From: Chlorella sorokiniana
Taxonomy: Eukaryota > Chlorophyta > Trebouxiophyceae > Chlorellales > Chlorellaceae
NCBI GenBank assembly: GCA_025917655.1
Contig: CP084610.1
Span: 558,001-622,000 of the forward strand
Reading direction: 5' to 3'
DNA length: 64,000 nucleotides
Under the pieces are notes generated by a model that was not told where the DNA came from, searched no databases, and was given only the letters and a program-made list of their open reading frames with translations. Below, piece after piece: positions 13,639 to 47,824 of this stretch (position 1 is its first letter; each line of letters begins with the position of its first letter). The position numbers and the translations under genes are program-made.

Positions 13639-16600
13639 ATGATGAATGAGGGCCGGGCCCCTAAAGCCCGCGCCCTGGTAAAGCGCACCGCGCGAGGCTG
13701 GGAAGCATCCTTCGATCAGCTGCTGGTGGGCATTTTTGCTTCCGAAGAACTCGCCAAACGATGCTTGGACACGCTTCGCCTGAAGGCAGCTGTGGACGGA
13801 GGACAGCGCATTGCAGAGGTCGAGCTGCTCTGCCCCCTTCAGGTGCGATACAACCGGGTTTAGGGGCAATTCGCTGCACTGTCAGGCTTCGACACCGCGG
13901 GGAGCCTGCCGCAGGCAGTGCCCCTGCACGGGCTGCCATCGAGCGCGGACTCATCTGGTCACTCCTGGTTGCCGACCCCAGTTGATCGGCCTTGCCAATT
14001 CTCCTGTCGCTTCCCCAGGACTATATAGACGAGCGAACCGCGCAGGAATTGCGCGCCTTCGACCTTGCGGCGGTGCTGGCGGCGGTGCGCAGCTATGCAT
14101 TTGGCGGCTGCCGCGCGCCGCTCTGCGGCATCGTGGACGGACCCACGCCGCCCGTAGAGCACCCTGAACTTCGCGATGCGCCAAAGCAGGCTGTCATAGA
14201 TCGCGACGAGCACGGGTACCGCGGCATCACGCGGGACAACAATGGGCGCCAGCAATACTGGATCGCCCTCCTCTACGCCTCGCTAGAGTGAGCTTGCCGG
14301 ACCGGCGCCTCGCTGCACTTGGAAAAACTGGCCGCTGCTGCTGTGTGCAAGGCATTGGCGGCACTCGCCCCCACGCGTGGCTTCGTGCTCTCACCGCTCC
14401 TGCAACCCCACCCACACGCAGCAAGCGGAAGCGGCCCCTGCCGCCGTCTGCCGGCGCCAAGTCGAGTCTGTACGTGGCTTGCTGCCGCAGCGCGCGGGAG
14501 GCGGCGGCGGCACATGATCTGGCCGTGCTGTGGTGGCACCTGGGCCTGGCCTACGCCCACCTTTGGGAGCAGGAGGCGGGTGCTGGCGCAGCCAACGCCA
14601 CGCAGCAGCAGCAGCAGCAGCTACATCTTGCAGAGCAGCAGGAGCAGCAGCAGCAGCAGCAACATTTTGGAGAGCAGCAGGAGCAGCAGCAGCAGCAGGA
14701 CCAGGAGAAGGCCCAGCAGGGGCAGCAGCAGCAGGGGGCGGCAGCAGGCGCAGCAGGAGGCAGGGGCTGGCGACGACGAGCAGCCTCCTCCCGCGTCGCC
14801 CTCGCAACTGCAGCCCCCCGCAGCGAATCTGACGCGCCGCATCATGACGCCGCGCCGGCTCATGCGCTGGTGCCGGGTGAAGGCGGCGCAGATGGCGGCA
14901 CAATCGGCGGCGGGGCCGGCAGCGGGGGGTCCATGCCTGACCACCGGCTGCCTGCGGAGGTCGGCCTGCAGCCAACCAAGGGGCTGCTCAAGCAGCTCAA
15001 CTTCCCGCTGGCCCAGTGAGTGGAGCGAGGGAGCGAGAGGGGCTTGCATGCTTGTGGGTTGTGCGATTGAGCGGCCCCGCCCGCCCAGCCTGCCCATCCT
15101 GCCTCGCTGCTTGTGGGGCCTCCAGGCTGGGAAGGGTTGCAAGGGCAAAAGGGGTCTGAGCCCTGGCCAGCCGGATGCTGGCTCTTTGTAACGGCGTGCC
15201 CCTTCAAGCAGCCCGCATGCCGTGCCGCCGCCCGCAGGTACGAGGGCAACCAGGCGCTGATGCGGCAGCTGCTGCGGGGCCCCTCCCTGGCCGAGCTGCG
15301 CTCGCTGGTGGGCCAGATGCGCAACAAGGGGTCGCTGGCCGCGCTGGCAGAGGCCGCCGCTTCCGCCGCCGCCGCCTCGGCGCCGCCAGGGGAGCCGGCA
15401 GCGTCGCGACGGGCCGCACCCGCGCCTCCTCGCGGGGCGCACGCCGCCGGGCAGAAGCGGCCGCTGGGGGCTGCAGGGCTGGCGGCGGCGCCGGGCGCCA
15501 GCGCGCCGCTCCGAGCGGCGCTGAGGCTGGCAAGCACGGTCGCCTCCACGACAAGCCGTGAGTCTTTTTTATTTCTTTTTTATGCTGATTGCACAAACGA
15601 CCATGCTGACTGCCTTGCAGCAGGCCCTGGCGCTGATGGGTGCTGCGTGCCGGGAGTTTGAAGCGGCTGTCATTCTGTACTGCCTTGCACGCTTGTGTTC
15701 CCGGCAGGTACATGGGCCTGGTGCGGGACCGCCAGATCACGCTGCACCCCTGGCGCCCCATGATCTGCGCCCTGGTCGAGGGTGGGTGCCGCCGCGCGGG
15801 CGCTGCGTGCAGCGTGCGGGCTGTGGTGGCGGCGGCGGCGGCCTGCATCGTGGGCGGCAGGGCTCGCAGCCCCCTGGGCGGCAGCAAGCGCTCAATTCCT
15901 TCCGTCAGTGGGGCTCGCTTCCTTGGTGGGACCCCAGCCTCAGGGGGTGCGCCCACAAGCAACGGGCCCTCCCTGAGAGGTGCGCGCTCCGGCTGCCTGT
16001 GCGCCCGCTCCTGCAGGCCACTCGCGCCCGCAGCCGCGCTCCCTGGCATCATGCGCCACTGCGGAGGAGGCGGCGGTGGCCCGCGACCTCGGCTGGATCT
16101 GGCTCTGGCGCCGCAACCTGTCGCTGCGCCAGCACGCCTCCCTCAACTTCCCCATGCAGAGGTGCGATTGAGCCCGTGTGGGTGTGCTGGGGGGGAAGGG
16201 GTGGTCATAGCAGCAACTTGCGGCATGGATGCGCGGCACGTCACCCGCCCCTGCTCCTCCTGCCGCTCACGCATGCTGCACAGACACATGCCGCACGCAC
16301 CACACACGCGCGCACTCATCCCCTTGCAGCTACGCCGACCACGGCGGCGAGCTGCTGGAGGAGGTGGCGCGGCAGGAGAGCCTGAGGCGCTGCGCGTGTA
16401 CCTGCGTCGCATGCGGGACAGGTGGGTGGCTGGGTGGGATGCATCGCGGGGGGGATGCATTGGGGGGGAGGTTAGGAGATTTGGATGAATGGTTCCGGGA
16501 TGGGGCTGGGAAAAGGGCAAGAGGGGCAGGGGCCAGGTGAGGGCGGGAGGGTCGGGTGACGGGGGAGGGAGGCGAGGGGCCTGCAGGGGAAAGTGTGCGC

Positions 16601-18274
16601 TCAGCATGGTGCCCCAGCAGGTCGCACCGGGTGCTGCACCAGGCGCGCGCTGCGGTCTGGGGGCAGTGCCGGCAGCGCCCGGAACCGGCGACGCGCCCTC
16701 CAGCTCCAGCGCCATTCCAGCCCCGCTGACACGCATGCCTGCAACCGCACACAACCACCTGCATTCCGGTGCCCGGTGCGCCCCGCAGCGGCCGCCTGTT
16801 GGAGCTCGCCACAGCGCTGGAGCAGGCTGTCGGGCCCTCGCGCACCGAGCGCCCCCGCGGCGCCCAACGGCGAACGTTGGCTCGTGCACGCCGCGGGCGA
16901 CGGGGCGGCGGCGCTGACGAGCAGGCTGCTGCAGACGAGGCGAGGGGGATGCGGCCGAGGAGGAGGAGGAGGAGGAGGCTGCCGCCGGGGAGATGCTGCA
17001 CCTCGCCGGCGGCGCCTGGGACGATGCCGATGCCGACGGCGGCAGCGGCAGCGGCAGCGGCGGCAGCGGTGGGGAGGAGAGCGAGGAGGACGCGGGGGCG
17101 GTGTTGGATCCTGGAGATGGGGACTGGCGCAGCCGCAAGAGGAAGCCGCTGCGGCTGAAGAAGCGTCCCCGCCTCACGCCGCCCCCAGCCGGCTGGGAGG
17201 CGGGGGACGCCCGGGGGGCCGGCGGCGGCCTCGACGCGCCGACAATCCAACCACCACAACTGCAGCAGCAGCAGCAGCAGGCTGCATGGCTCAGTGCCGG
17301 CGCGGCAGCGGGAGCGCGCGGCAGCGCCAGCCCCGCATCGACGCCGCGCGCGCGCGCCGCAGACGGCGGCGGCGGCGGCGGCGGCACGCCCGGCAGCGGC
17401 GGCTCCCGATTTGTGGGCGTGCAGCACATAGACAAGTCCAAGGCAGCGAGCAAGGCGTGGATTCCGAGGCCCACGGTGCGCGTGCCCGACTCCCGCAACA
17501 AGCTCGTCTCCAAGCAGCTCACGCTGGCGTACTGCGACAGGTGCGGTACGGGCTGGGTGGCGGCGCGGCTGCCCCGGGGCATCCCCATGATGCTGGTTGG
17601 CGCTGAGATTGCAGATTCGCGTATTTGACCAACAAGCAGCTCGTTCAGCAAGCACGGAGAGCCTCTCATGCCCCCGCTGCCTGCAACGCCTCGTCGCCGC
17701 ATCGCCGCCGCGACCCTTTCCCCGCACGCTGCCCTGCGTCTCATGCGCAGCGCCGAGGAGGCTGCCGTGGCGCGAGACCTGGCCACGCTGTGGAGCTGGG
17801 GCCAGGGTGGCGGCGGCGAGGGCAGCAGCAGCCAGCAGCGCCTCAACTTTGCACTGGCCAGGTGGGGGCCCCCGCCTGGGAGCGCGACAGCGGGGGCTGG
17901 CATGTCGGCTGGCTGCGGCAGGCGGCTGGCAAGCCGGGTCGGGGCCGCGCTGCCACCCAGCCCACACACCAGCCTGTCTTCCACCCTGGCGCTGACGCCG
18001 CGCTTGCTTCTCAGCTCCTCCTGACCAACCAGCCCATGCCCGCCACACCCTTCCCGTGTACCTCCGCCTGTACTCCCCCGCAGCTACCAGGCGCGGCCTG
18101 GCCTGCTGCAGCGCATTCGGGGTGCCCACCGCCGAGGGCATGCAGGCCCTGGCCAAAGACCTGCGGGACAGCGGTACGCTGCGCAGCCTGGCGGACTCGC
18201 TGGGCAGCCCGCTGGGCGGCGGCGGCGCCGCGCCCGGCACGGGGCCCGGCCATGGTGGCGTCGCCGCTGACTAG
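13639..18274 (+). CDS. Multi-repeat AP2/ANT-like protein, copy A (four degenerate units)
   Basis: Predicted DNA-binding regulator built from degenerate AP2 domains, each followed by an ANT-type linker helix. Units: (1) about 13690-14090, GWEASF...GIFASEELAKRC then YIDERTAQELRAFDLAAVL; (2) about 14210-15340, GYRGITRDNNGRQQYWIAL, SAREAAAAHDLAVLWWHLGL, LNFPLA, then YEGNQALMRQLLRG; (3) about 15709-16420, YMGLVRDRQ, TAEEAAVARDLGWIWLW, LNFPMQR, then YADHGGELLEEVARQES; (4) about 17400-18270, RFVGVQHIDKSK, SAEEAAVARDLATLW, RLNFALAR, then YQARPGLLQRIRG. These parallel plant AP2 features (YRGV, EEAARAYDLAALKYWG, NFPL, and the YEKEIEEM linker). The segment at about 17130-17180 is Lys/Arg-rich (RKRKPLRLKKRPR), a likely nuclear signal. 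The start is taken at ATG 13639; an ATG at 13503 opens a short blocked frame. Frame slips occur near 15020, 16375 and 18110. The exact exon set is tentative. Confidence 0.6.
14601..14748 (+). repeat. CAG/GAG-rich tandem repeat within AP2/ANT-like A
   Basis: Imperfect CAG tract containing two copies of an about 39-bp unit ending GAGAGCAGCAGGAGCAGCAG. It encodes Gln/Glu-rich sequence between the AP2 helix and the LNFP motif of unit 2, or lies in an intron there. It is likely polymorphic in length. Confidence 0.75.
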
Positions 18275-18665
18275 GCCCCCGCAAGGCAGAGTGCTGCGGC
18301 TTGGGCGCCTCCATTCTTGCATGCCTCATGCTGCCTCTCTGCTGACGCCCGCCGGTGCTTGCTGCTCCCTAATCCTCCTCCCTACTTTTCTCGTCTGCTG
18401 CTCCCGCTTGCGCAGCTCTTTCCCCCTTGCCGGCTCTCCCTGCCACAGCTCCTTTCCCCTTGCCTGCTCTTGCATGCCGTGAGAGGTGTGCCTGCCGTGC
18501 CTCCAAAGTTTTGCCCATGCCAGCGCCATCCCTGCTGAGCACCCACCGCCCTGCACGCCTCCGCCTGTTGCCACAGAGGCAGGCGGGGCTGCATCGTGCA
18601 GCTGCAAGCGACACCCAGCGGCAGCCCTGAGCACGTGATGTGCCCGCTGTGCGCTGCTCCTCTTG
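18275..18665. other. Convergent intergenic region
   Basis: About 390 bp between the stops of AP2/ANT-like A (+) and the membrane-protein gene (-). It is pyrimidine-rich with no supported coding sequence. Confidence 0.45.
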
Positions 18666-21261
18666 TCATCGCTGTGTATCAACTGACATTGACGTGGGCT
18701 TTACCTCCGTGTGCGCGCTGTGTAAGACATGTGCGCTGTGCTGTGGCGCCCGGCATAGTAGCGGTGGCAGCGGCCGGGCAGTTCCGGGCAGCATGCCGCC
18801 CCATGAGTACGCTGCAGCGGGCGCTGCGCCGCTGGGGGCGGCTGGGTCAGTCCCGCCCGGCTCCAAGTCCAGGTCCAAGCCCGAGCTGGCCCCGGACTCG
18901 GTCCTGGACTCGCCCTTGGGCTGCGCAGCGTCAGCCAGGAAACGAATGCCGCCTGCAGGCAGCGGGCGGCTCGTTTGCGCAGAGCAGCGGGATGCTGTGC
19001 AGCCCACCGCACGCCCCCCCTGCCCCCATCATCCCACGGCCCTGCCCCGCTGTGCACGCTGTGCACACCGCCCCCCTGCGGCAGCGCGCCGCACCTGTGC
19101 CGTCCACAGCCCCCGCCTCCGCCAGCAGCGCCTCCCACAGCTCATACGAACGCATCCAGGCAGCGTCGCGCTTGCAGGCGGCAGGAAGGTGGGTGGAACG
19201 CTCAACGGTCATCACCGCCAGCCACATGAGCACCCACCTGGGTGGGGAGGAGGTGGTGCGGATGGGGTTTGGGGGTTGTGGGTGGCGACAAAAGTGTACT
19301 GTTGTAGCAAGGCGGGCGCAATCGTAGGGGCAGCAGCCGCAGCGTGGCAGCCACCGACTGACACGGCGGGCAGGCGGCGAGCAGGCCAGCAGTGCAGGCG
19401 AGCTCCGTGGGGCCGCCACAGCCCCTGCCGCCGCTGCGGCCCCTACAAGGCCCCAGCCCGCCGGGCGCCGCCTCACCAGGGCTGTCCGTCGGCGGCTGCC
19501 CAGGCCAGGCAGCCGGCCACACCCGAGAAGCCCACCACCTCGAGCAGCGAGGCGGCGGCGTCGTGGTGTGAGTAGGACAGCACGCGGGCGCAGTGTGAGA
19601 GCCAGAAGGAGGGGATGGCCAGCATGAACCAGTCGGGCGGAAGAGGCCCTGGATCAGGGCCGCGCTGCCCGCCACAAACCTGTGTGGGTGGGGTGGGGTG
19701 GGTGGGGTGGGGTGGGGGTTGAGGGGCAGTGTGCGGGCGGCTCTCAGCAGACTGTGGCAGGCGGGAGTACACCCAGCAGGCCCACAAAGAGAGAGGTATC
19801 CACCGGCTGAGGCAGCTTTGTGGCTCGCCCTCGCATGGGACGGCACAGCCGGGGCCGGGGCTTGCCCCTGCAGCTGGAAAGCATAACAACGAGGGCTGCG
19901 CACACGCGCTGCTGGGCGCCGGCCCCCCGCACCAGAAATGCACCAGGGGGCAGCTGACCGCCCAATAGATGTGTACCCAGCGCGCGCTGCCGCCGCCACC
20001 CTTGCCCCCGCCGTCGCCCGCCCTCTGCCGCCCGCCGACGCGCGTGTCCCGCCCCTCGTGCGCGCTGTCTTCTGCCAGCTTGTGGGCGGCGCCCACGCCG
20101 TGCGTGCTGTGAGCGGCGGCACCCACGGTGAAGCTGTCGCTACGCAGGACCAGGCGCCAGAAGGATGCCGACAGAATATTATCGTCTGCTTGATGGGAGG
20201 GGGGCCGAAACAGGGGGAGGTGCGTGGCATGCTTGCTTCGTGAACTGGTGGTGGGGGAGGCTTAGCAGCTGGGTCCCAGACGCATGTTGAGTGCCGGAAG
20301 CGGCGGTGAAAATTTGCGGGGTCTGCCCATTCAAGGGGCTACCCTCTGCGCACAAATGGAAGGGAGGGGAACAGAGCCCCCCCCCCCCCCCCCCACCCCC
20401 ACCATCCCAGGCAGGTGACAGAAGCTGAGGCAGGCAAAGCGGCGGCGGCGGCGCTCACAGGGCTCCGCTCCCCACAGGAAGAGAGAAGCCACCAGGATCT
20501 GCAGCCAGAAAGGGGCCACACCAGCGCAGGCAAGGCTGTAGTGGCCACAAACAGGTTCACCTCTTGAAAGCAGCCGAGGCGGCGGCAGGCATCACACCCA
20601 AACCCCGCGTGGACCGCCCCTGGCCTGGACCGCCGCAGACACGCACCGGAAACACCCAAGCCGAGCACGTCTGCAGGGGGCAGGGCGGCCGGGAGGCCAG
20701 CAGCAGTGGGCACAGGAAGTTGCTAAAGAAATCCGTGGTGGCGGCAGCAAGTGAAGAAGCCTCCTGCGGCAGGCCGGGGGCTGTCGCCGCCGCCTTACAC
20801 AGCAGCGCAACAAAGCCCCCCTCCCCCTCGCGCTCACGATGAGTGGCAGGGTCCAGATGAAGGCCCCGCAAGGTGGCCAAACACCAGCAGCTGCTTGCGG
20901 ACCTACAGAGGCCGGGCGGGTCGCAAGAATATTCTTCAACGTGAAATGAGGGTGGAGGAGCATAGGGCATGTCGCAGCCGCCAGCACCTCCGCTGCCCAG
21001 GCCGCCGCGTGCGAACATGGCGGCCACGCCGTCGAGGCGAGGCATGAAAAGCCTGGCACGGATCAAGGTTTGCGCAGCACAGCAGGCCGCTGTGCAGCCG
21101 CAGCACACCTCGAGCGGCACGCTGAACTGTACCACGCGCGTGAGCGCAAAGCCGGCAAAGCACGCGGCGATGGCCGTCAGCAGCACAGTCGACACGGTGT
21201 TGATGTTGAAGGGCGCGATGGGCAGCGCAGCGCAGTGCCACCAGGGATCGAACTCCACCAT
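18666..21261 (-). CDS. Unrecognised multi-pass membrane protein
   Basis: I do not recognise the family. The minus-strand ATG at 21261 opens MVEFDPWWHCAALPIAPFNI, then hydrophobic helices (VSTVLLTAIAACFAGFAL, VCCGCTAACCAAQTLI). Further exons contain VRKQLLVFGHLAG followed one frame over by AFIWTLPLIVS (about 20900-20840), VAPFWLQILVASLFLWGAEP (about 20505-20450, good GTGAGC donor), SASFWRLVLRSDSFTVGAAA (about 20180), and FVAGSAALIQGLFRP then DWFMLAIPSFWLSHCARVL and SLLEVVGFSGVAGCLAWAA (19680-19480). After SYELWEALLAEAG (about 19140) comes a Ser/Gly/Ala-rich tail to a stop at 18666. Five to seven membrane segments are likely. Breaks near 20872 and 19640 fall in G/C runs. Exon borders and the 3' end are uncertain. 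Confidence 0.5.
20377..20394. repeat. 18-base C homopolymer
   Basis: Uninterrupted run of 18 C, followed by A and more C. It lies in a probable intron of the minus-strand membrane-protein gene, so it reads as poly-G in the transcript. Its length is not reliable in any assembly. Confidence 0.9.
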
Positions 21262-22460
21262 GCTGCTGGAATGCCCTGCAGGCCCAGCTGGCGCCCAGGC
21301 TGCTGCTTGGAACAGGCCGCCGCCAGGGAAGTCGGACGCTGCGGCTGGTCTGCACGATTTGGAACTCTTGACCTGCGTTTGTGGGACGAATACAATGCAG
21401 CTCAGTGCAGGGCAGCATGCAACATGTCGCTTGTCAAGCCCTTGTTGTAGGAGTGATTGCTGCCGCGGCGAGCCGCGGCGCGCGTTGGACGGTCCCGCGC
21501 CCCCTGTAGCTGGGTGCCTCCTTGCGCCGAGCGATTGGACCATCAGGCGTGGCTCAACCTCACCTATGTGGACTCACAGCAACAGCCCGCGCGGCGGGCT
21601 CCCGCTCCAACGCAGAGGGGCAACAACGAACCTCCTTCAGGTAGCCCAGGTAGGGCGCAGGGGGTCTTTCAATTAACAGCAGAGTGTGACACACCCGAAA
21701 ACGTGTACGAATGAGAGTGTTTATCTATCACCCCTGGGCGCTCAGGAGCTGTACGTTCAGCGGCAACAGCATGACGTCGCTGCAGATGATTCTCTTCCGT
21801 CCTAGCGTCAGAAATTGGAGATGGACAGCGAAACTCGAAGCCGTGGCGGCAACCAGGCATACAACTGCATCCCTGCTGGGCCGCCGCCGCCTAAATAGCA
21901 GCGCCAAGTGGATGTCTATCCAGCATCTCTCTTTATGCCGACCCACCACACTGTGTAGGCCCATGTAGGCACGCATACTGCAAGAAAGTGCACACCATGC
22001 AAAACAGGACACGATATGGTGACTTGGCTGCATGCGACTGGCCGACTGGCGCCCGCGGGACAGTCATGCCCAACTTGCAACTTGGAGAGCGCTCACAATG
22101 CAATGTGCAGATGGGCCCGACAATGCATGAGGCACTTCTCAGAGCGCTGTCAAGGCAACAAAGGGGCAAAGCAGGCATAGTGGAGCCCATGCAACCACGC
22201 ATTGCTGAGCCAGCACCCAACAGATTGTACAGGAGGAAGCACGCTGAATGCAGCCGTCAGTCAGGGATGTCAGATAGGACTCGCAGCAGGGGAGGAGGAC
22301 AGCGCTTGGGGTCGATGTCCAGCATGTCCACTGCGCAAGAAAGCTGCGGCGCACTTGGTAAAGCGCCGCAGGGCCACATCAGGCTGCTGCGCCACCGTAT
22401 CGGCTCTGCTGTGGGCTGCGGCGGCGACGCTCCAGCAGGCGGCACCCGGCAAGCAGCCCG
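21262..22460. other. Long intergenic region, less GC-rich
   Basis: About 1.2 kb between two minus-strand genes: the 3' side of E-Syt-like B and the upstream region of the membrane-protein gene. Composition falls towards neutral at about 21680-22260. No TTACA (TGTAA on the minus strand) was noticed, and no tRNA-like fold or conserved ORF is convincing. Confidence 0.45.
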
Positions 22461-33254: not shown

Positions 33255-33287
<33 letters not shown>

Positions 33288-36200
33288 CAGGTGCACATGG
33301 TGCACAACACCTCCAAGCTGGACCCCCTGGTGGCCGAGTACGAGAAGCTGCAGCTGGCCTGCACCGACCTGGTGGACAACTACATCTCGCTGCGCCGCCG
33401 CGGCAAGCCGCTCAAGCCCAAGAAGGTCACGGTGCTGGGGGCGGCCATGGGCGCCTGGGGCCGCGAGAAGTACGGCGTCAAGCCCGTCAAGGTGGATGCC
33501 TTTGAGTTCTACAGGTGGGCAACATGTGTGCTTCTGTCTTTCTTTCTCTTTCTTTCATTGCAGCAAGGGGTTGGCGGGGAGAAGGGGCTTGGTGCAGCGG
33601 AGCAGCTTCTTGCCGTGCATGCGCGAGGGATGTTGCCTCCAGGGGCCCCACCTCTGCGTGCTTTCAACCCGCTTGCCCGGGCTGCCCCTGCCAGTGAGAA
33701 CCCCTCCCGACACACTCGCACCCACCCGCGCGTCCGCACCCCGCCGCCGCCGCAGGGACCGACTGACTGAGCTGCGGCGGGCCATCCTGGAGGAGCAGGG
33801 CAAGGCGCTGGAGCCGCACAACGTCTTCCCCGCCGCCTTTGTCACATTCCGGCGCCGCACCAGCCAGGTTTGTGGGCGGTGTGTGTGTGTGTGTGTGGGG
33901 GGCCGGCGCACATACTCGCCACGCAGTTGGCTGCATATGCGCTCGTTGGCCTTCAGCTGACGGCAGCCCGCCACTCTCTGGTACTCCCTTCTGCGTGCGG
34001 CTTTGCTGGACGCCCGCCCTTGTCCCGGATCGATTAGCTGCAAAGCTTCCCATGTGCGCTCAACCCCCTCCCGCGCCCCTCCCGGCTCCCCCAAAAAGGT
34101 GGTGGCCGCGCGCACGCTGATGAGCGAGGACATGTCTGCGTGGAGGGCCCAGGCCGCCCCGCGCCGAGGAGCTCGTGTGGCCCAACCTGGGGCTGCGCAT
34201 CTGGGAGCGGTCGGGTGGGTGGGCTGTGTTCTGGCTGCGGCTGTTTCGCGGTTTGAATTGAGGGAAAGAATGGCAGGGCTGCGTGGTCGGTCAGGCCGGG
34301 TGTGTGGGCTTGCAGCAGCACCCGGGCGCGGTTCCGGCAGCCGTGCTTGGCCCCGCTCCCCCTTTGCTGGCCTGCCGCTGCTCCAGCATTCGAATCTGGA
34401 GCATCTGGGCCCCCAACCCAGCTGCGTTGGGTGCTGGTGTCCCACCGCCCGCCCCCTCCCTCTCTGCTGCAGGCCGCTCCATCGCCATGTATGCCGCCTT
34501 CATCGCCATGGCCGCCTTCTTCATGATCCCTGTGGCGGCGGTGCAGGGCCTGCTCTCACTCAACTCCTTTGTCGGGTGCGCCGCTGCGGGGCCCCTGAGG
34601 ATTAGACGGGGGCAGCAGGGCCTGCTCAGGGGGATGTGAGGCAGCGTGCTGGCTGCTGCGCGCTGGCCCGGCGCATGGCGTGGTGTCTGGCGCGGCGCTG
34701 CGGGGCCTCCAGCAGCGCGTGGCGTACCGGCGACGCTAGTCCCGGCCACCTGCTGCATGGTGGTGTGCATGTTGACACCGCCGCGGGTGGCAGCAGGTGC
34801 CCCCTCTGTCGCGCACCCACGCCCTCACACCCCCAACCCCTCCCTCCCCGCAGCTTCGTCAACTCCATCCCCATTGCCGGCGCCCTGCTCACCGGCATGC
34901 TGCCGGGCTTGGCCCTCAAGATCTTCCTGGCACTGGTGCCGATGTTCATCACGATGATGAACAGGTGGGCACCCGGACACACCCCGCCCGCCGCCGTGCA
35001 CACCCCGCCTGCCGCCCCGCACACCCCGCTGTCGCTGCCCCGCCTGCTGCCTGTGCTGGCTGCTCCTGTCAGCCCCTTGGAAGCAGCTTCCGCGCACGCC
35101 CTGCCTCGCTGGCGCCGCCGCCCCTCCTTCCCCACCCCTCCCCATGCCCCACTCCCCGTCGTCCTCCAGGTTTGCGGGCATGGTCAGCCAGTCCCAGATT
35201 GACCTGGGCCTCACCTCCCGCTTCTTCTACTTCCAGGTGTGGGGGTGGGGGTTGTCGGGGTTGGGGGTGGGGGGGGCGGCGGCGGGGGACGCGCGCGCTC
35301 GCGGCAACGTTGGCCACCACCAGAGAAGCCAGCGCTGGCAGGCCTGCAGCCGCGAGCAGATCGCGTGGTGTAGCGTCGCCTGCTGCTCGCCCCGCGCCGA
35401 TCTCTCCCCTCGCTAATCCGGCCGCCGCCCTCTTATTCTTCTTTCTTTTGTGGGGGCGCCTGCAGGTCATCACCCTCTTCCTGGGCTCCTTCATCGCCGG
35501 CACCTTTGCCAACCAGATGAAGCAGTTCATCTCCGACCCGGGCTCCATCATCACCATCTTCGGCACCTCCGCGCCCCAGACCGCCATCTTCTTCATGACC
35601 TATATCGTGCGCGGCTGCGCAGGGCTGCCTGCCCCGCCGCTGGGTGTTGCCGCTGGGTGTCGCACTGCGCTGTGGGTGCTTTGAGTCTCGCCCGTACAGT
35701 CAGCCAGACAGCTGCGTATGATCTGATAGCTTGGCTGCTCACAACGGGCATGAGGGAGGTGCCTTTACCGTTGCCGACCTGCAGCTAACCGCTTCCCGGC
35801 CTGTGTGCCCTCCCCCCCACACACACGCGCAGTTGCTGGAAGCGCTGCTGACGTCCAGCCTCACCCTCATGCGCATCATCCCGCTCATCATCTTCTACGT
35901 GAAGTCGGCGCTGCTGGCCTCAACCGAACGGGCCAAGGTGCGTGCGGGAGGCTGCCGCAAAGGCAGCGGTGCGCTGCTAGGGCGGCTGCAGGGGGCCGGG
36001 AAGCAGATCGCCGCCACCCGCCTGCTGGTCTGCAGTGCAGCAGGGTGGGCTGCATGGGGGCGGGCACCCTCGTGGAGAGCAACAGGTGGCTTCCAGCTGG
36101 GCTGCTTCCTGCCACCGCCCCACTGCAGCGCGATTGCCTGCGCCCTGCAACACTGAACACCCCAACCGCCCCCTTCTCCTGTCGCTGCAGGAGCGCCTGT

Positions 36201-39401: not shown

Positions 39402-40423
39402 TCAGTGACGTTCAGGGGCGCACGATCCTGGATCGCTCGTCAATGCTGGCACTGGCACATGCTGCAGTGCCGCAGTATCCTCTCGGTGTGCTGTGAAGGG
39501 ACAGTATCGCGGCAGAGCACATGGGCCGCCATGCATGCCTGGCGATGCGCCGTCGTGGGGGCTGGATGCCGCATCGGCTGGGCTTGCCAGCAGCAGCCGT
39601 CGCACTGGGCACAGCCGCTGCTCAGAACGCGGAAATCGCGGCGGGCTGGGGGGTGCCGGGCTGAGCAGCTCCTTCACGCGGCTGAACCAGGAGGAGAGCG
39701 GCGTGCCGATCAGGGAGCCCAGGCCAGACGAAGGGGTGGCCCCGACGCTGCTCATGCTCACGCTGCTGCTGCTGCTGCCGCCGCTGCTGCCCCGCCTGCT
39801 TTCGTCCGCGCAGCGCTGGGGGCTGCCCCAATGGCCTCCATTGGGATGACCACAGGATCGGTGGGGCGGGCTGCGCAGCACTGGCCGGCGATGAAGTGGC
39901 CGGGGCCGGCGCCAGCGAGGCGAGGTGGCGGCGGCGCCGCGCGCCGGCTGCGCTTGGCGGGCTGCTCTCCTCGCTGCGGCGGCGTGGCGCTGTGCGGCAC
40001 GGCGCCTGCTGCTTCCAACTGCCGCCCTGGGGACGTGCTGGCCGCGGCAGGCTGCAGCGCGGCATAGCCTGGGTGAAGGGCTGCGCAACGCAGCGTCTGG
40101 CTGGCAGCACGCTGCTTCTTGAGCGCCGCGACAGCAGCGGCTGGCACCGTGTGCTGAACGGTGCGCGTCAGCACAGGGCGGGCGTCGGGATCAACGCCAT
40201 GGCCTGCCGTCTTGGGCAGCAGCAGGCGCATCTGGGGCAGCCGCCGCCGCTGCAGCAGCTCGGCTGGGGCATCCCCAGCCACTGAGGCGCGGCGCCAGGC
40301 GGCAGGGCCCTCCTGCGCCGCCGCCATGATGTTGTATTGCAGCTGCCTTGCCCGCAGCATCATGTACACTGCAGCGGCAAAGTCAGGAGCAAACAAACCG
40401 TCAATTCCCTGCCTTGCGGCCAT
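39402..40423 (-). CDS. Unrecognised family V protein, copy 1
   Basis: Not a family I know, but three copies in this window share its pattern. The minus-strand ATG at 40423 starts MAARQGIDGLFAPDFAAA. The conserved core is VYMMLRARQLQYNI, then AAWRRASVAGDAPAELLQRR, a Thr/Val/Asp segment, EQPAKRSRRAAP (basic, nuclear-signal-like), PVVIPMEAIG, an Ala/Ser repeat, and, one frame over, GTPLSSWFSRVKELLSPAPP. The frame change falls in the GCA/AGC repeat at about 39770-39800 and could be an indel error. No membrane segment or signal peptide is seen. The basic patch and Pro/Ala-rich composition suggest a nuclear or nucleic-acid-associated protein; this is inference only. The end at 39402 is the stop of the shifted frame. 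Confidence 0.5.
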
Positions 40424-41608
40424 TTACTGGGAGATGGAGTGAACACGACCAGGTGGTTTATGTGTCGGGAAATGGGCGCGGCACCAGCGGGCGCAACCCC
40501 ACCTGTGGGCGTCTGCAGGCCTGCAGGCCAGCACATTTCCGCGCTCGACTGTTTCAAACTGCACGGGCAGGCAGCGCGATGTGATGTCTGAGGTCGGGTG
40601 GTGCACTTACAGGCCGTCAGGAGTGCCCCCGACAGACCGTCAGCACCCGTCACGCGGCAGACCTCACCTTTGGCAGGCTGCGACCCTGAGGCATGTGAAG
40701 CAGTGTCTGCAGCCAGGTGCGGGCTTGACAGCGGCCCGGCAGGTCATTGAGTTTTGGCCGACCCACCAGGCAGAAGGTGTTGAGCTACTGCTAAATTCAG
40801 GGCAAGCAATGGAAATTCAAAAAGAAGATGAATGTAGCCAACCAGGCGCAAGTGTAAGAATGTAAGCGCGGTCGAACCCCAGCTTCCGCGTAGCTCTCAC
40901 TGCCGCAGCTTCCCACCTGCTGGTCACCGACGCGGAGAGACACGCTTGTCAGGGCTCGAGGGTCGACAGGGATTGTAGTCAGGATAGCAAAAAGGTAGGA
41001 ACCGCCGGCTACGGCTTAAGCGTCTCCTGTGCGGCCTCTCGCAGGGACAGTACGACTGCGAACTGCTAGTTGCAGTCAGTAAGTGTTACTCCGCAGTGAC
41101 GACTGGAGTCGATGTCTTTGCCTGAAGTCGCCCTCCTGCAGGTGCAGGCTGCTTCCGCTGCTGCTGCCGCCGCTCTTGCCCACCTGCTCCCTACTTCATG
41201 CTTAGCTAAGGACGCACCCAGCCCGCTGTGTGATGGCGAGCTCCCCCAAGCCCTAAGCTGCTTGCTATCAAGCTAAAGAACAGTCGAAACATGCAGCTAG
41301 GTATAACAGGGAGTCCCGGTGCGCCTGAAGGCGCATAATGCAACGCTTGCCTACCGTGATGGTCACCTCAACGCAAGAGGTCGGGGCAGTGCTTCATGAT
41401 CGGGCTGCTTGTGTGGCGCCTGTTGTGGTAACTGTCCACACAAGCCGCATGAAGGAACACAAGGGGCATCAACAAATACGTATGAGACCCCGCCGTGCGC
41501 TCTGCTGAGAGTGCGGCCATCATGAGAGCCCCCTCGTTTGTTTGATGCCGGCATCCGAATTGTTGTCTGCTACCTACAATGATTGTCGTAGTATTTTGAG
41601 CGCCCAAG
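40424..41608. other. Intergenic region between family V copy 1 and AP2/ANT-like B
   Basis: About 1.2 kb upstream of two divergent genes, relatively AT-rich at 40780-41600. No coding exon, tRNA or repeat could be supported. Likely promoter and 5' UTR sequence for both neighbours. Confidence 0.45.
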
Positions 41609-44600
41609 ATGGCGTTGCCAGGGAGAGTGGAAGAGCGGGGTGCCGCTTGGGCGGTGGTCTACCCCGGAGAGGTCACGGGAGATGTCGTGGAGCTTATATT
41701 TGACAATGAAGCCGGCGCCCGTCAAACTTTGCATATTTTTCAGCTGCGGCACTGCCTCCGCACGCCTGGATCTGAGTCTGCTGTCGGCCGGTTGATAGCC
41801 GAAGTGCAGGTGAGACGATCTACTGCGCGAAGAGCCGGCGCGACCGCGAGTGCTGGTTGTGCCGACCGCCGCTGCCGCCAGCCCGTGTTGTCTGCAGGCT
41901 TTTGCACGTGAGGCAGGCGAGGAAGATGTGGAGGAATGGTGCAACGGTGCAAATCTGCACGAAATACGCGATATCAGCCTGGCAGACATGGTTGCGATGC
42001 TCAGCGGGGAGGATCCTGACGACCGGCACGATGGCGGCGAGGCAGCAGAAGCGGTAGTTGAAGCCCCTTGCGGCCCCCGCAGCACAGGCAGTGTAGCCCC
42101 AACAGGACCCACGGCAAGCCCCGCAGCAGCGCAGGAGCAGCCCCTCGCTGTTGCTGTCGAAGAAGGGCTGCCGGGGGAGGCTGCAGCACCCAGCAGGCAG
42201 GCCCCCAGCCCCGCCCCCAACAGCACGGGCGCCGGTGCGCCCACCCCGCACCCTGCACCCCAACAGGGGCTGGCCGGCGGCGGCCGGAGCACCAGGGACG
42301 CCTTGCAAGCAGCCGATGCAGCAGGGCTGGGTGCAGGTGCAGCAGAGGATCCAGCGCAAGCCCCTGGGGGAGGGGTGGATGCCGGGAGGCCGCCGCCAGC
42401 GAGGAACTGGAACTGGCCAGCGAGCACACAGCCAGCGACTACCTGGGCGTCGCCCTGGTGGGGGCTGCTGGCAGGCGCGCGTTTCGTTGCGCTTGGATGC
42501 GCAGGGGCGGCCCAGCCCGCAGGCTGATGCCTGCCGGCAGGCCGTGGCCGCCGCCAGCGAGCTTGGTGAGCAGCAGCGGGGCGGCTGGGCGGCGTCAGGG
42601 CGCGAGGGGAAGCTGGCTGGGCGGCGGGGCCTGGCTGCCGCTGCACCCGCGCCTGCTTGTTTTCGTGCTTGCTTGCCTGCGGTCTCTGTTGCCTGGAACC
42701 TCGCCGCTGCACGGCAAGTCCCCTGCCCCCTCCCTCCCGCTTGCTGCGCCACCAGAGGCGGCGCTGGCCCGGGACATCGCTGTGCTGTGGCAGGAGCGGT
42801 GGTGCTGGGCGGCGGCAGATTCCGCCAGCAGCCAGCCCTGCCACGTGTTCAACTTCCGAGCGCAGAGGTGGGTGGCGGGCAGAGGCCGCGCGCTTTGCAT
42901 GCCGCTCCGGACCCCCTCTTTCATGTCGGCCCGCCCTGCCTGCTGCTGCTGGGAGGGGCAGGGGTGCTGCCGGCCGCCGCCGCTGCTAAGAAAAGTGCTG
43001 CCGGCCGCCGCCGCTGCTAAGAGAAGGTGCTGCCGGCCGCCGCTCCTGCTGAGAGAAGATGCTGCCGGCCGCCGCTGCTGCTGAGAGCAGGTGCTGCTGA
43101 CCGCTGCCGCTGCTAAGAAAAGGTTTTGCCGGCCGCGCCGCTGCTAAAACATGTGCTGCCGGCCGCCGCGCGCTGCCCGCAGGTATGCCCACGACGCCAC
43201 CCTGGCCTGCATGCTGGCGGAGCTGCCCACCTGGCCAGAGCTGCGCGCCTACATGGAGCAGGTGCAGGTGACGGCAGCCGCCGCTGGCTCCTCAGGCCAG
43301 CAGGTGACGGCAGCCGCCTCTGGCTTCTCAGGGCCAGGCCAAGGCACGGCGAGGTTCCGGTGGCAGCCGGCCTGCTGCCTGCACGGGCTGGCCTTGAGCC
43401 TTGACCTGCCGCAGCGGAATGCGAAATGTTTGCAGTGCAGCAATGCCCTCACAGGAGGCCGGTGCGCGGGTGCCATCGCAGGCGTGCGGTTTCTTGGCGG
43501 CGGCGGCGGCGGCGTATGACGCAGACCGGCTGCCAGCCAGCCCCTGGCCAGACCCGGACAGCCCTGGACCTGCTGCGGACGGTGGCAACGAAGGGCGGGA
43601 TGACAGGCCAGGCGGCCCCGCAGGCGGCAGCCGCAAGCGGCAGAGGCGCGGGGACGGGGAGGGTGAAGGCGGCGGCGGCGCACCGGCGCCTGCCAAGCGC
43701 AGGGTGGGGTGGCGGCATCGGGGCGGCCGCGACAAGCACCCAGTTGCTGGACCGGCTGAGGAGGACGAGGAGCAGCAGCAGCAGCCGCGGTCGACGACGG
43801 ATGGCGAGCCTGCAGAGCGCGAGCAGCAGCTGAGGGGGCCACAACGGGCGGCACCCCGAGATGCCGGCGTCTATAGCACACTACGCAAGTCTGGCAGGGT
43901 GTGGCGGGCCTGGGTGAAACTGCCCGTTGCTCTCCAACCAAGCGCCGCCCCACGCACGTTTGTGCTGGAGCACGCTGACCATGGAGTAGCCACCGCGGCT
44001 GCGGAGGTGGCGGCGTTCTGGAAGGCGGCTGTGCTGCGGGCACCGGGCGAGCGCGGGCCGCTGCACGACAGGTGTGCACAGCACAGCGCAGCACAGCACA
44101 GCACAGGAAAGCAGCCAAGCATGAGCTGGCTTGGAAGTGTTGGCCTGCAGCTTGGGAGCAAGGGGCAGGCCCTCGTCAGGCTTGGCTGAACAGGCTGAAC
44201 AGGCTGGACAGCGGTGCCCTGTTTAACTGCGCAGGCTGAACAGCGGTGCCCTGTTTGACTGCGCAGGTTCGCTGCGGACCCGCACCTTGGGGAGCAGCTG
44301 GCAGGCGTCGGCAATGTGGCGCAGCTGCGGGCGCGCTGCGGGCGCTGGTGCAGGATGGCTGGCTGGCAAGCGTCGCCAGCCTGCTGCGGCCCACCGCCGC
44401 GGATGCCGTCGGGAGGGCGATGAGGCGCGGGCGGCGGCGCGGCCCAGCCTGGCGAGGCAGTGGCAGCTGTGACCGCGCAACGAGGGGCGGCAGACCACTT
44501 GGGATGCTCCGCCAGCCAGCAGCAGCCCCAGGGGCAGGGGCCCGCCTCCGGTTTCTTCGGCGTGATGTTTGATCACAACAAGTGGATGGGGGGTCACCCT

Positions 44601-47600
44601 AGCGTTACATGGTGGCCTCAGCAAGTTTGCGACCGTGCTGCGCCACCAAGACCCCGCTGTGGCGGCGGCGGCGCGCGATGTGGCTGTGTTCTGGAAGCTG
44701 CGGGTTCTGGGACAGGGCGGCCCCGGCAGCCGCGCCCGCTCCTGGAGTCCAGGCAAGCGACCCGCTTTTTGCAGCCTGAGCAAGCTGCATGGCTCGCAGC
44801 ACCCTAGTCGGGCCTGCTGTGCTGGCGCCGGGCTGGCGCCGGGCAGGCGCCACCGTGCCGCCGCTGCTGAGCTGGCGTCGCGCTGCCGCCTGGTTTGCAG
44901 GTACGACCAGGACCGCAGGCTGCTGGAGCGGCTGCGCGCCGTCAGGGACATCGAGTCCCTGCGGAAGTTGCTGCAGGAGATGAGCAATGGCGGCGAGCTG
45001 CAGGAGCTGGCGGCGGAGCTGCGGCGGCGCTGCCCCTCGGCGGCGGCAGCCAGCGGAATGGAAGCGGAGGAGGAAGAGGAGCAGTTGCCCGCCTCCGGTT
45101 TCCTCGGCGTGACATTCTTCTACAACAAGTGGAACGCGTGGGTCAGCCTAGCGTTGAATGGCGGCCGCAGCAAGCAGATGAGCGTGCTGCGCGACCGAGA
45201 CCCCGCTGTGGCGGCGGCGGCGCGGGACGTGGCTGTGTACTGGAAGATGCGGGTTCTGGGACAGGGCGGCCGCAACCAGCGTCCCCGCTCCTGGAATCGA
45301 GGTGAGCGATCCGCCGGTTTGCAGCCTGAGCAAGCTGCATGGCTCGCAGCACCCTAGTCGGACCTGCTGTGCTGGCGCCGGGCTGGCGCCACCGCGCCGC
45401 CGCTGCTGAGCTGGCGTCGCGCTGGCGCCTGGTTTGCAGGTACGACCAGGATCGCGGGCTGCTGGAGCGGCTGCGCGCCGTCAGGGACATCGAGTCCCTG
45501 CGGGAGCTGCTGCAGGGAATGAGCGATGCGGGTGAGCTGGAGGGGCTGGCGGCGGAGCTGCGGCGGCGCTGCCCCTTGGCGGCAGCAGCCAGCGGGATGG
45601 AGGCTCAGCGCGCACGGCGTGGGCAGCAGGAGCAGGCAGGGGAGGAGGGGGAGGAAGACGATCCTGACGAGGGCACGGAGGAGGCAGCGGCGGAGGAGAC
45701 GCTGCAGCGTCAACAGTCTGCAGAGGCAGAGCAGCAGCAGCAGCAGCATCAACAGTCTGCAGAGGCAGAGCAGCAGCAGCAGCAGCAACAGCATGGTGCA
45801 GACGGGAAGCAGCAGCAGCGACAGCAGCGCAATGGGGCCAGTCCAGCGGGCCAGGCATCCCCAGGCGCCGCCCACACGGGGCCCCGCGCAGCGGATGCCC
45901 GATTCGGGGTTCGTTGGGCTTGAGTTCAGGGGCGGCAGGTGGCAGGGGGATGCAGGTCAGGTCGGATGAGGGCGGCAGCAAGTGGGTCGCCCTGCTGAGC
46001 CACCCGGATCCCGCGATGGCGGCGGCGGCGCGGGACGTGGCTGTGTACTGGAAGACGCGCGTCCGGGGGAGCGCGGCCCACGGCAGTCGCCTGCACAGCT
46101 GGAGGCCAGGTGTGAGCCCCTCGCGGCCATCCAAATGCATCCCCGCGGCTCTGCTTCCAGTGCCAGCCTGCGAGACTGTGTGTCTGGCTGGGGCAGCTGC
46201 AGGGGCGGAGTGCGGTCGGTGGGCCACGGCCGTACTTGGGATCCGCACATGAATGTTGTGCTGCTGCAGGTACGAGCAGGACGAGGAGCTGAGGAGGCAG
46301 CTGCACGCCGTGCACAGCGTGGCCGACCTCCGGCAGCTCTTGCAGCGCCTGCTGCAGGCTGGGCAGCTGGACGAGGCGGCGCGGGAGCTGGGGCGGCTGT
46401 CGGCGGCGGCGGAAGCGGCGGCGGAGGCGGCGGCGCCGCGGAGCCGGCAGCAGGAGGCCCCGGGCGCTGAGGTCGCCATGGCGGCGCCGCCGGCGGGGTG
46501 GCATCGGAGCTTGGCTGCCTGGCAGGAGCAGGCGCGGCGGCAGGCGCAGGCGTGGGCTGCACAGGCACCCGCCCACGATGACGCCTGGCTGCAGGGCGGC
46601 GCACTGTCGGCCATGCTGAGCGCGGGGGCAGCTCCTTCGCAGCACCAGCAGCAGGGGCCGCCGCAGCAGCAGCTGTCTGCAGGCGGGTGGGCAGGCCAGC
46701 AGCAGGCTCAGCCCGCAACCAGCACAGGCGAGCAGGCCTGCCGCGCAGGCACAGAGGGCTGTGTGTTCCCGGCGCTGCTGCCCTGCAAGCTGCGGCTGCG
46801 GCGTCGCCGCAGGGGGAGCCCGCTGCGCTGCAAGAGCTCAAGGGCTTGCTGGCAGGGCTGGAAGTGGAGCGGGCGCCGCAGCCCGACTGGAGCCCGCCCC
46901 TCCAGGCGCCCTGCCGCTGCCAGCGGCAGCCAGCACGCCGCCGCCGGCAGACGCCGCGTGGCACCAGCCCCGCAGCGCCGCCCCGCGCTGACGGCGCCCG
47001 GCCCCGGGGACGTTGTGCTGCACTGCAGCAACTGCCGCGGCGTGGGCGGCCTGCCGCTGCTGGAGCGCCTGCTGGTGCTGTGGGTGCGGCCTGTGGATGC
47101 CGCCAGCACCCCACAGCGAGCCGGGTGAGGTGGCGGCGTGTGCGTGTGTGTATGTGGGGAAGGGGGGGCGCTTGGGGTGCAGGATGCGGCTGTTGTGGCG
47201 GGGGTGCCAGCTGCGTGTGCCCTCGCGGCCTGCCCTCTAGGGCCCCCCTTGCTGCGCGGGCCCCTCGCCTCGCACGCCCGACAGCTGCCGAAGCTGCCCC
47301 GCCTCCACCCTGCTGCCGGGCTCCTCTTCTGAACGCCCCTGCGGCGCCTCGCCCCCGCCCCTGCCCCCAGCCACCGCTGCGAGTGCCTGGTGCTGGCCAA
47401 GGGCGCGGCGGCGGGGCAGCTGGCGGCGCAGGCGCTGCCCGCCCCGCCAGCTTGGAGCTGTCCCGCGCGGGTCACAAGTGGCGGGCGGTGGCGGTGCCGG
47501 CCCGCACCCGCAGCTGGTGCCTGGAGGGGCGCGTGCCGCGGCAGCAGCGTGAGCGGGGGGCCGGGCGGCGCTGCAGTGCTGCCGGGCGTTGGCGTCGGGG

Positions 47601-47824
47601 CCTTGCTGCGGAGCTGAGCTTGCCGCTCTGTGCTGCCAAGTGACCGCCGGCATGTCGTCTCAGTTGAATCCCGCCCCTCCCCCCGCCCCCTCCGTCTCCC
47701 GCGCGCAGTGGAGGCGCTGCTCAGTGCTCTGTCGGCTTTGGAGCAGCAGGCACCATGTCCCTACGCAGACCCCCTGATGTCCAGCGTGTGCCGCAAACCT
47801 GCGCGGCCTGCAACGAAGCGGTGA
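41609..47824 (+). CDS. Multi-repeat AP2/ANT-like protein, copy B (about six units)
   Basis: Larger paralogue of the gene at 13639. The ATG at 41609 starts unit 1 (AAWAVVYPGEVTGD, IFDNEAGARQTLHIFQLRHC, RLIAEV). Unit 2, 42430-43270: YLGVALVGAAGRRAF, EAALARDIAVLWQERW, VFNFRAQR, then YAHDATLACMLAELPTW. Unit 3, 43860-44390: SGRVWRAWVKLPVAL, AAEVAAFWKAAVLR, then FAADPHLGEQLAGV. Unit 4, 44541-45030: GFFGVMFDHNKW, AVAAAARDVAVFWKLRVLG, then YDQDRRLLERLRAVRDIESL. Unit 5, 45088-45580: GFLGVTFFYNKWNAWVSLAL, then YDQDRGLLERLRAVRD. Unit 6, 45890-46400: GFVGLEFRGGRWQ, AMAAAARDVAVYWKTRVRG, then YEQDEELRRQLHAVHSV. A Gln-rich stretch follows unit 5; the C-terminal region contains VVLHCSNCRGVGGLPLLERL and ends CRKPARPATKR at 47824. 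An intron sits before each linker Tyr, usually splitting an Arg codon. Frame slips are frequent. Predicted transcriptional regulator. Confidence 0.6.
42964..43182 (+). repeat. 32-bp intronic minisatellite ending at a splice acceptor
   Basis: About 6.5 imperfect copies of a 32-bp unit beginning GTGCTGCCGGCCGCCGCCGC and ending in GCTAAGAAAAG. The array fills the 3' end of an intron of AP2/ANT-like B; the last partial unit supplies the CAG acceptor before the exon starting with the Tyr of YAHDATL. Confidence 0.9.
44201..44266 (+). repeat. Two-copy 32-bp repeat duplicating a splice acceptor
   Basis: Direct repeat of 32 bp at 44201-44232 and 44233-44264, starting AGGCTG and containing GCGGTGCCCTGTTT. 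Each copy is followed by AG within CTGCGCAG, so two near-identical acceptors lie 32 bp apart. The downstream one (exon from 44267, FAADPHLG) keeps the frame. Confidence 0.85.
44541..45634 (+). repeat. About 547-bp intragenic tandem duplication (AP2/ANT-like units 4 and 5)
   Basis: Sequence at 44541-45087 recurs from 45088. Matching landmarks: CCCGCCTCCGGTTTC at 44541 and 45088; the intron phrase GCAGCCTGAGCAAGCTGCAT at 44771 and 45321. Both exonic and intronic parts are duplicated, so the event was genomic. Coding identity is high, with the AP2-like beta region diverging most. Confidence 0.88.

Follow-up and report, generated by a model that had tools for sequence, protein, structure and literature searches.

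Repeated, strongly diverged AP2-derived units in two Chlorella sorokiniana genes: a putative multi-headed DNA-binding protein family

Two plus-strand genes built from repeated AP2-like units were identified in a 64,000-nucleotide stretch (the window) of the green alga Chlorella sorokiniana, which lies on contig C9 of a genome of 38.8 Mb in 15 contigs. By frame reading they hold ten units, four in gene 1 (13639-18274, with its stop codon at 18272-18274) and six in gene 2 (from 41609). The four units of gene 1 and units 1, 3, 4 and 5 of gene 2 descend from the AP2 domain, as judged by profile comparison, and each unit (here also called a head) of the gene 1 family keeps a conserved sheet of its own. 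The reading favored here, with a probability of roughly 0.55, is that a nuclear, multi-headed DNA-binding regulator is encoded, belonging to a conserved and unannotated Chlorella-type family that arose from an amplified AP2-subfamily module; its nuclear place, its binding to DNA, the role of its linkers and the working state of gene 2 are what we infer.

Both genes follow a common plan, consisting of a Gly-bearing strand segment, a helix like EEAAVARDLATLW, NF in several units, an intron, and finally a segment rich in helix whose first residue is Tyr or Phe. The original prediction had described such repeated units of one plan, and all seven of its quoted motifs that were sought lie inside the genes on the plus strand; YRGI and YMGL each occur once more, on the minus strand, elsewhere in the window. 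The two genes do not fill the predicted span, 13639..47824, being separated by the interval from about 18.3 to 41.6 kb. The first exon measures 204 nt in gene 1 and 201 nt in gene 2 and in both has CAG and a phase-0 boundary at its end. A correction applies to each: that of gene 1 holds a profile-supported unit, and that of gene 2 (unit 0) is without profile support when taken alone. At all eight Tyr/Phe-started linkers of the window the splice acceptor is identical in place and phase, before the split codon preceding the Tyr or Phe; the first linker of each gene starts with some other residue.

AP2 descent was assessed by profile methods. A hidden Markov model (HMM) made from 33 non-redundant AP2 domains, none of them from the window, was run on the 1219 six-frame open segments of at least 25 amino acids. 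It placed gene 1 units in ranks one to four of the window (7.5, 5.5, 4.7 and 4.6 bits), with the first strand of unit 2 sixth; none of these single scores was significant (best independent E value 0.3 for 1219 segments), and no gene 2 unit appeared among the best 25 rows. In profile-profile comparison, three gene 1 units taken without relatives scored 42.8 against AP2, a value reached by none of 300 shuffles (maximum 18.3). When the relatives described below were included, units 1-4 scored 29.9, 39.3, 35.7 and 41.7, each above all of 100 column shuffles, and units 2-4 jointly scored 54.9 (0/200 column shuffles, maximum 17.1). Reversed AP2 profiles gave only 7.7-10.7 with gene 1 units, and column-shuffled AP2 profiles gave 16.8 or less with units 2-4. 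All eight units jointly scored 31.0 against AP2, exceeded by one of 300 shuffles and by none of 150 on repeat; the exceeding shuffle, with a score near 130, and one from another comparison are of a kind that proved to be gap artefacts of hhalign when alignments are shuffled (with 4 and 15 columns aligned).

Gene 2 is tied to AP2 by way of gene 1. The AP2-like parts of the two genes (five and three units, respectively) matched at 37.4, and their linkers at 45.7, the strongest match between the genes, with none of 150 shuffles as high in either case. Compared singly with the gene 1 profile, gene 2 units 1, 3, 4 and 5 each scored above all of 60 residue shuffles (the whole of unit 1 at 38.7), and the scores of units 0 and 2 were reached by 22 and 33 of 60; 27 of 150 shuffles in this test aligned at most six columns or gave no result and were excluded from the count. 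By these profile-profile comparisons with shuffles, AP2 descent is regarded as settled, directly for gene 1 units 1-4 and through gene 1 for gene 2 units 1, 3, 4 and 5. The proposed amplification of an AP2-plus-linker module, to four and six units, is likewise supported.

A search with units of both genes, in which 7997 candidates of about 440-1400 amino acids were scored, recovered only relatives of gene 1: P0121 (1074 amino acids), COHA_007461 of Chlorella ohadii (P0122, 977 amino acids) and the partial P0123 (454 amino acids), with the unit order of gene 1 kept. C. ohadii, also of the Chlorellaceae, is the sole named source of a relative found. With gene 2 units as the query, no homologue was recovered among the 7995 scored candidates that share most words. 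The P0122 gene model lacks linker 1 as well as the first strands that unit 2 should have, and its residues from about 860 to 977, past unit 4, have no counterpart in P0121 and perhaps represent a neighbouring gene fused by annotation. All nine gene 1 pieces matched P0121, at 55-94% identity, and eight of the nine matched C. ohadii at 44-80%, the ninth matching only at a different linker. The upper value comes from the first-strand piece of unit 3 (94% over 35 columns), whose query included GKHGRLHDKP and one surplus splice residue.

The sheet and the helix of the units have had different histories. In five pairs of relatives (units 2-4 of the window, P0121 and P0122) the sheet part is 71-86% identical (36/42, 37/44, 35/48, 35/48 and 37/52), whereas units 2-4 of P0121 share only 15-20% with one another (9/44, 7/46 and 8/44). 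The helix is 71-100% identical between relatives and 62-71% between units (8/13, 9/13 and 10/14). Between units the sheets have thus diverged far more than the helices, in agreement with the earlier view of strongly diverged DNA-contact strands. Few stretches of the protein are better conserved than the sheets of units 3 and 4, and the net charge of nine sheets, +4 to +7, is close to that of three sheets from WRI1 and ERF1 (+5 to +6). Because the sheets are so much more alike between relatives than between units, the heads would have parted long ago, each being now held in its own form, and this head-specific conservation argues against mere decay of gene 1 and in favor of head-specific binding faces. 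On this sequence evidence, the heads of the gene 1 family are specialised and not drifting. The suggestion that DNA binding had been lost is not borne out, as the sheet of each unit is kept among relatives and matches those of WRI1 or ERF1 approximately in its basic character.

The junction between unit and linker is that of the AP2 subfamily. The pattern N[FYV]x4[YF] was found in 239 of 242 AP2 domains from 120 AP2-subfamily proteins (the 120 listed of 2968 matches), and an NF-x4-Tyr/Phe junction occurs in all four window units that retain NF and in five of six units (units 2-4) of P0121 and P0122. The body of the linker is different. In hhalign comparisons with ANT linkers it scored 8.2, with 41 of 150 shuffles as high, and 9.4, with 11 of 100; when an HMM of the ANT linker (tested as Y.KE.EEM....EE...LRR.S.GFSRG) was used, no window linker stood among the best 20 matches listed. 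The linker is predicted to form three helices (residues 2-13, 17-29 and 32-43), at a predicted local distance difference test (pLDDT) value of 77-86 over the first 40 residues, and this putative three-helix linker domain has so far been seen solely beside these AP2-derived heads. The description of the linker as ANT-type therefore applies to its junction and not to its predicted three-helix body.

In the AP2 subfamily (ANT, WRI1 and AP2, with an R1-linker-R2 layout; PDB 7wq5) the order of three strands, helix, NF-x4-Tyr and linker is, by sequence, the same, as are the helix pattern EEAA...D..A and the position of the linker between NF and the next unit. These proteins have two AP2 domains, compared with the four and six units of genes 1 and 2. 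The window units differ further in that the YRG, WEARIG and YLG contacts are mostly replaced, in the dissimilar linker body, and in low-complexity spacers between modules, which in P0121 reach up to hundreds of residues.

Proteins with more than two AP2 domains are known from other lineages. The ApiAP2 proteins of apicomplexans likewise carry a variable number of AP2 domains. In the names of the plant and algal proteins given next, the prefixes Vvi, Vca and Cre are taken here to stand for grape, Volvox and Chlamydomonas. According to Song et al. (PMC4982375), CsuAP2-007 of Coccomyxa subellipsoidea has seven AP2 domains and VviAP2-017, VcaAP2-001 and CreAP2-004 have three each, and a second paper (PMC7811268) gives two three-AP2 proteins for Auxenochlorella and also reports that strand similarity is low. 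A database protein of the trebouxiophyte Myrmecia bisecta, WJX72_002140 (P0013), has four AP2 domains and three NFPxxxY linkers, and resembles the window genes in its amplified modules and in the NF-x4-Tyr before each of the three linkers. A multi-AP2 architecture is therefore not an undescribed kind, as had been supposed, and since such algal proteins are already in print, genes 1 and 2 are best viewed as a diverged, unannotated variant. The differences are that P0013 has plain AP2 domains with a Pfam match and that the other multi-AP2 algal proteins were counted by domain tools, whereas the window units are silent in Pfam; the window linkers are also longer and, by prediction, helical compared with those of multi-AP2 green algal proteins. 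No published description of a Pfam-silent, AP2-derived family with helical linkers was found among open-licence PubMed Central papers.

It is proposed that an AP2-subfamily module of three-strand sheet, helix, NF-x4-Y junction and linker was amplified to give the gene 1 family. The gene 1 protein would carry four AP2-derived heads that are not equivalent to one another, and after each of them a linker (predicted as three-helix in the later modules). It also has low-complexity spacers and a basic stretch that resembles a nuclear signal; basic stretches are present likewise in P0121 and P0122. The sheet face of each head may be retained for a site or partner particular to that head, and the helical linkers may keep the heads at a distance or pair with one another. 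Gene 2 would be a nearby paralogue in which the last unit was multiplied, with more modules on contig C11. A stronger version, put forward tentatively and with somewhat less confidence, is that of a new family in which the AP2 fold gave rise to non-interchangeable heads, with their own conserved faces, set on a new three-helix linker domain, acting as a multi-head reader of DNA or chromatin and encoded at two or more loci (C9 and C11). Pfam-based AP2 counts in surveys of algal transcription factors would miss the gene 1 family, which also illustrates how far an AP2 array can diverge with selection still acting on each head separately. If the heads bind DNA, they would constitute a natural multi-head reader with sites testable head by head; if they do not, a plant DNA-binding fold would have been recruited to another task.

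Several results weigh against the reading of the family as an AP2-derived DNA-binding regulator. With HMMER filters on and E values up to 10, Pfam returned no family for any of the ten window units nor for P0121, P0122 and P0123; no family was assigned by Pfam, NCBIfam, Rfam or a PDB sequence search, and P0121 and P0122 had no NCBIfam match. Five gene 2 units alone scored only 17.4 against AP2, and three of 300 shuffles were as high. The YRG and RAYD elements are mostly lost, YRG being kept only in gene 1 unit 2 and AYD being replaced, by reading, by AHD, ARD or AEV. Structure prediction gave no confident AP2 fold: in the model of the gene 2 exon with linker 3, the AP2 part had a pLDDT of about 40 and consisted of helices without strands, which leans against an AP2 fold, and P0121 folded alone had a mean pLDDT of 37. 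In this low-confidence P0121 model, unit 2 did show the strand-strand-strand-helix order (158-163, 169-176, 196-202 and 205-236), and units 1 and 3 showed no such sheet. In Foldseek searches with these two low-quality models no match reached an E value of 0.001, and no AP2 structure stood among the best 50 of 436 rows, nor among 16 of 16.

The Pfam silence, the weak score of gene 2 alone and the insignificant single-sequence HMM scores could be explained by convergence, with an Ala-rich amphipathic helix and short aromatic strands imitating AP2. This is very improbable, and for gene 1 the profile comparisons lead to its rejection, as column shuffles and reversed profiles keep the composition and score far lower, and the match spans strands, helix and NF end in AP2 order, with the NF-x4-Y junction. 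In a comparison with PF00847 unit by unit, Pfam itself gave nothing for all ten, and profile-profile matching, by way of gene 1 for the units of gene 2, supported all except gene 2 units 0 and 2.

The loss of most YRG and RAYD elements would also suit a protein scaffold, in which heads that bind no DNA each hold a different protein with their sheets and the linker helices form the conserved functional part. The hydrophobic residues in gene 2 sheets point the same way, as does the prominence of the linkers, the only part of the modelled exon folded with fair confidence and the source of the top match between the genes. Such a scaffold is considered unlikely, although far less so than convergence, because the sheets of units 3 and 4 rank with the best conserved parts of the protein and remain basic, as would be expected of a face that contacts nucleic acid.

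The DNA-binding regulator reading must further accommodate a disturbed reading frame. Within recognised units the frame changes six times with no intron in between, twice in gene 1 (near 16378 and 18124) and four times in gene 2 (near 42458, 44335, 44590 and 45950); the change at 44590 was seen by comparison with the neighbouring copy, and the other three of gene 2 rest on reading. A possible seventh lies in the gene 1 spacer, between linker 2 (15239) and GKHGRLHDKP (15529-15558, in another frame), where an unseen intron is possible. The flanks of both gene 1 changes are adjacent in P0121 (within 6 residues). As a housekeeping control, 112 exon matches (19,404 bases) of HSP70 and TCP1 in the same genome were inspected, and one short-gap junction was found among 59 contiguous junctions, a control that misses frame changes within unmatched stretches; the single case is an HSP70-like gene (C3:1270967-1270971) with a frame change and no intron. 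The density of G/C runs is alike, 31 in 3,615 bases of the units (8.6 per kb) and 94 in 11,919 bases of the control (7.9 per kb; 60 of the 112 pieces). The youngest gene 2 duplicates (unit and linker 3 versus 4) differ by 10, 10 and 11 substitutions at the three codon positions, with rates of 0.10 per nonsynonymous and 0.17 per synonymous site, and by 31 of 282 coding and 10 of 144 approximately intronic aligned bases; a few end codons and the gapped intron bases were excluded, and the intron stretch starts with some exon bases. No sign of purifying selection since duplication was detected between these two copies, which offer few sites.

Gene 2 may therefore be decaying. Should the frame changes be genuine, gene 2 would be a decaying copy that no longer makes a working protein, and gene 1 of this strain may have begun to decay very recently as well; this view is given an even chance. 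It would account for the excess of frame changes over the control at a like G/C-run density, for duplicates without third-position bias whose coding part evolves no slower than the intron, for the GC donor after unit 3, and for the failure of both searches to find a gene 2 relative. Against it, acceptors are in place at five of five Tyr/Phe-started gene 2 linkers, and assembly indels are a possible source of the frame changes. In its identity to P0121, gene 1 equals or exceeds the C. ohadii copy (35/60 versus 23/59 identities in unit 1, 64/75 versus 62/77 in unit 3 and 60/83 versus 52/83 in unit 4) and hence is not drifting; its two frame changes would be either assembly faults or very recent. 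Decay of gene 2 is compatible with the DNA-binding regulator reading, because that reading rests on gene 1. The parts of both genes are listed in Table 1.

Table 1. Parts of gene 1 and gene 2 in the window (positions counted from its first nucleotide; scores are profile-profile scores).
Feature	Position	Strand	Remarks
Gene 1 exon 1, unit 1 (AP2-like, MMNEGRAPKARALVKRTARGWEASFDQLLVGIFASEELAKRCLDTLRLK...)	13639..13842	+	58% to P0121; with relatives 29.9 vs AP2, 0/100 shuffles
Gene 1 exon 2, linker 1 (DYIDERTAQELRAF...) and unit 2 strands 1-2 (GYRGITRDNNGRQQYWIALLYASL)	14019..14287	+	GT-AG; P0121 tblastn 7e-23
Gene 1 exon 3, unit 2 strand 3 and helix (SLYVACCRSAREAAAAHDLAVLW), Gln-rich spacer, NFPLAQ	14422..15015	+	AP2 HMM rank 4 in window
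Gene 1 exon 4 (modelled), linker 2 (YEGNQALMRQLLRGPSLAELRSLVGQMRNKGSLAALAEA), spacer, GKHGRLHDKP in other frame at end	15238..15557	+	
Gene 1 unit 3, first strands (YMGLVRDRQITLHPWRPMICALVEG)	15706..15790	+	86% to P0121 by tblastn
Gene 1 unit 3, last strand, helix and NFPMQ (GHSRPQPRSLASCATAEEAAVARDLGWIWLW...)	16016..16162	+	85% to P0121, E 6e-22; AP2 HMM rank 1 in window
Gene 1 linker 3 (YADHGGELLEEVARQ, then PEALRVYLRRMRDR in other frame, change near 16378)	16331..16422	+	
Gene 1 basic stretch RSRKRKPLRLKKRPRLTPP	17128..17184	+	Nuclear-signal-like by reading
Gene 1 unit 4, strands (SRFVGVQHIDKSKAASKAWIPRPTVRV...SKQLTLAYCD)	17404..17541	+	72% to P0121, 70% to P0122
Gene 1 unit 4, helix and NFALA (AEEAAVARDLATLWSW...)	17746..17862	+	AP2 HMM rank 2 in window
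Gene 1 linker 4 (YQARPGLLQRIRG, then PTAEGMQALAKDLRDSGTLRSLADSL in other frame, change near 18124) to stop	18085..18274	+	
Gene 2 exon 1, unit 0, 201 nt	41609..41809	+	Phase-0 CAG end as in gene 1; profile alone: 22/60 shuffles reach its score
Gene 2 linker 0 (AFAREAGEEDVEEWCNGANLHEIRDISLADM...)	41898..42020	+	Reading only
Gene 2 unit 1, strands (SDYLGVAL, then GGCWQARVSLRLDA in other frame, change near 42458)	42434..42545	+	
Gene 2 unit 1, helix and NFRAQ (EAALARDIAVLW...)	42755..42868	+	
Gene 2 linker 1 (YAHDATLACMLAELPTWPELRAYMEQ)	43184..43270	+	
Gene 2 basic stretch SRKRQRR, nuclear-signal-like	43629..43649	+	Reading
Gene 2 unit 2 (GVYSTLRKSGRVWRAWVKL...ATAAAEVAAFWKAAV)	43863..44072	+	43% to unit 4, E 0.0065; vs gene 1 unsupported, 33/60 shuffles
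Gene 2 linker 2 (FAADPHLGEQLAGVGNVAQLRA, then LRALVQDGWLASVASLL in other frame, change near 44335)	44268..44440	+	
Gene 2 unit 3	44544..44742	+	Frame change near 44590; GC at position of unit 4's GT donor
Gene 2 linker 3	44902..45066	+	Three predicted helices
Gene 2 unit 4, complete AP2-like unit within single exon (GFLGVTFFYNKWNAWVSLALNGGRSKQMSVLRDRDPAVAAAARDVAVYWK)	45091..45309	+	27.6 vs gene 1 profile, 0/60 shuffles
Gene 2 linker 4	45441..45596	+	
Gene 2 unit 5, frame change near 45950	45901..46102	+	33.1 vs gene 1 profile, 0/60 shuffles
Gene 2 linker 5	46271..46402	+	

Two tandem repeats lie within gene 2: a minisatellite (42963-43176, period 32, 6.8 copies) in the intron upstream of linker 1, and a repeat encoding QQSAEAEQQQ (45704-45826, period 39, 3.2 copies) in the coding spacer from linker 4 to unit 5.

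Beyond the window, pieces of P0121 were compared with the same genome, and eight of the 11 matches were to gene 1, the sole strong match, the other three having E values of 0.03 or worse. Two of the weak matches point to the minus strand of contig C11 (1151457-1163141, perhaps from 1148588; E 0.16). There, one locus (L084) scored 28.5 bits with the gene 1 unit HMM and 14.0 with the linker HMM, and another (L011) scored 13.4 and 37.4, respectively, against best scores of 8.2 and 6.8 across 43.7 kb taken from other loci in the genome; both linkers have a splice acceptor before the Tyr in the same phase. By sequence criteria, C11 is probably a second locus of the AP2-like unit with its Tyr-started linker, comprising more than one gene.

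Typical AP2-subfamily genes also occur in the genome, including an ANT-like two-repeat gene (C3:678000-687900) and an AP2 gene with an NFPRESY linker (C2:3412128-3412322), whose linker seems, by reading, to change frame. A four-AP2 query gave 12 matches to the genome at E values up to 0.1, none of them in the window. Some other matches were set aside: antibody chains, the top PDB sequence matches of one exon (E 0.05 and worse), were taken as noise, and the Pfam matches of single linkers to Rnk_N, DUF6127, Nif11, SelB wing and TPR_14 (best E values 0.02 to 0.21) were too weak. The window additionally contains an alpha-SNAP-like gene on the minus strand (53102-54088; SNAP family PF14938, E 1e-24, in three stretches) and, on the plus strand at 34776-35681, a stretch matching RSN1_7TM (PF02714, E 1e-8) of the calcium-dependent channel family.

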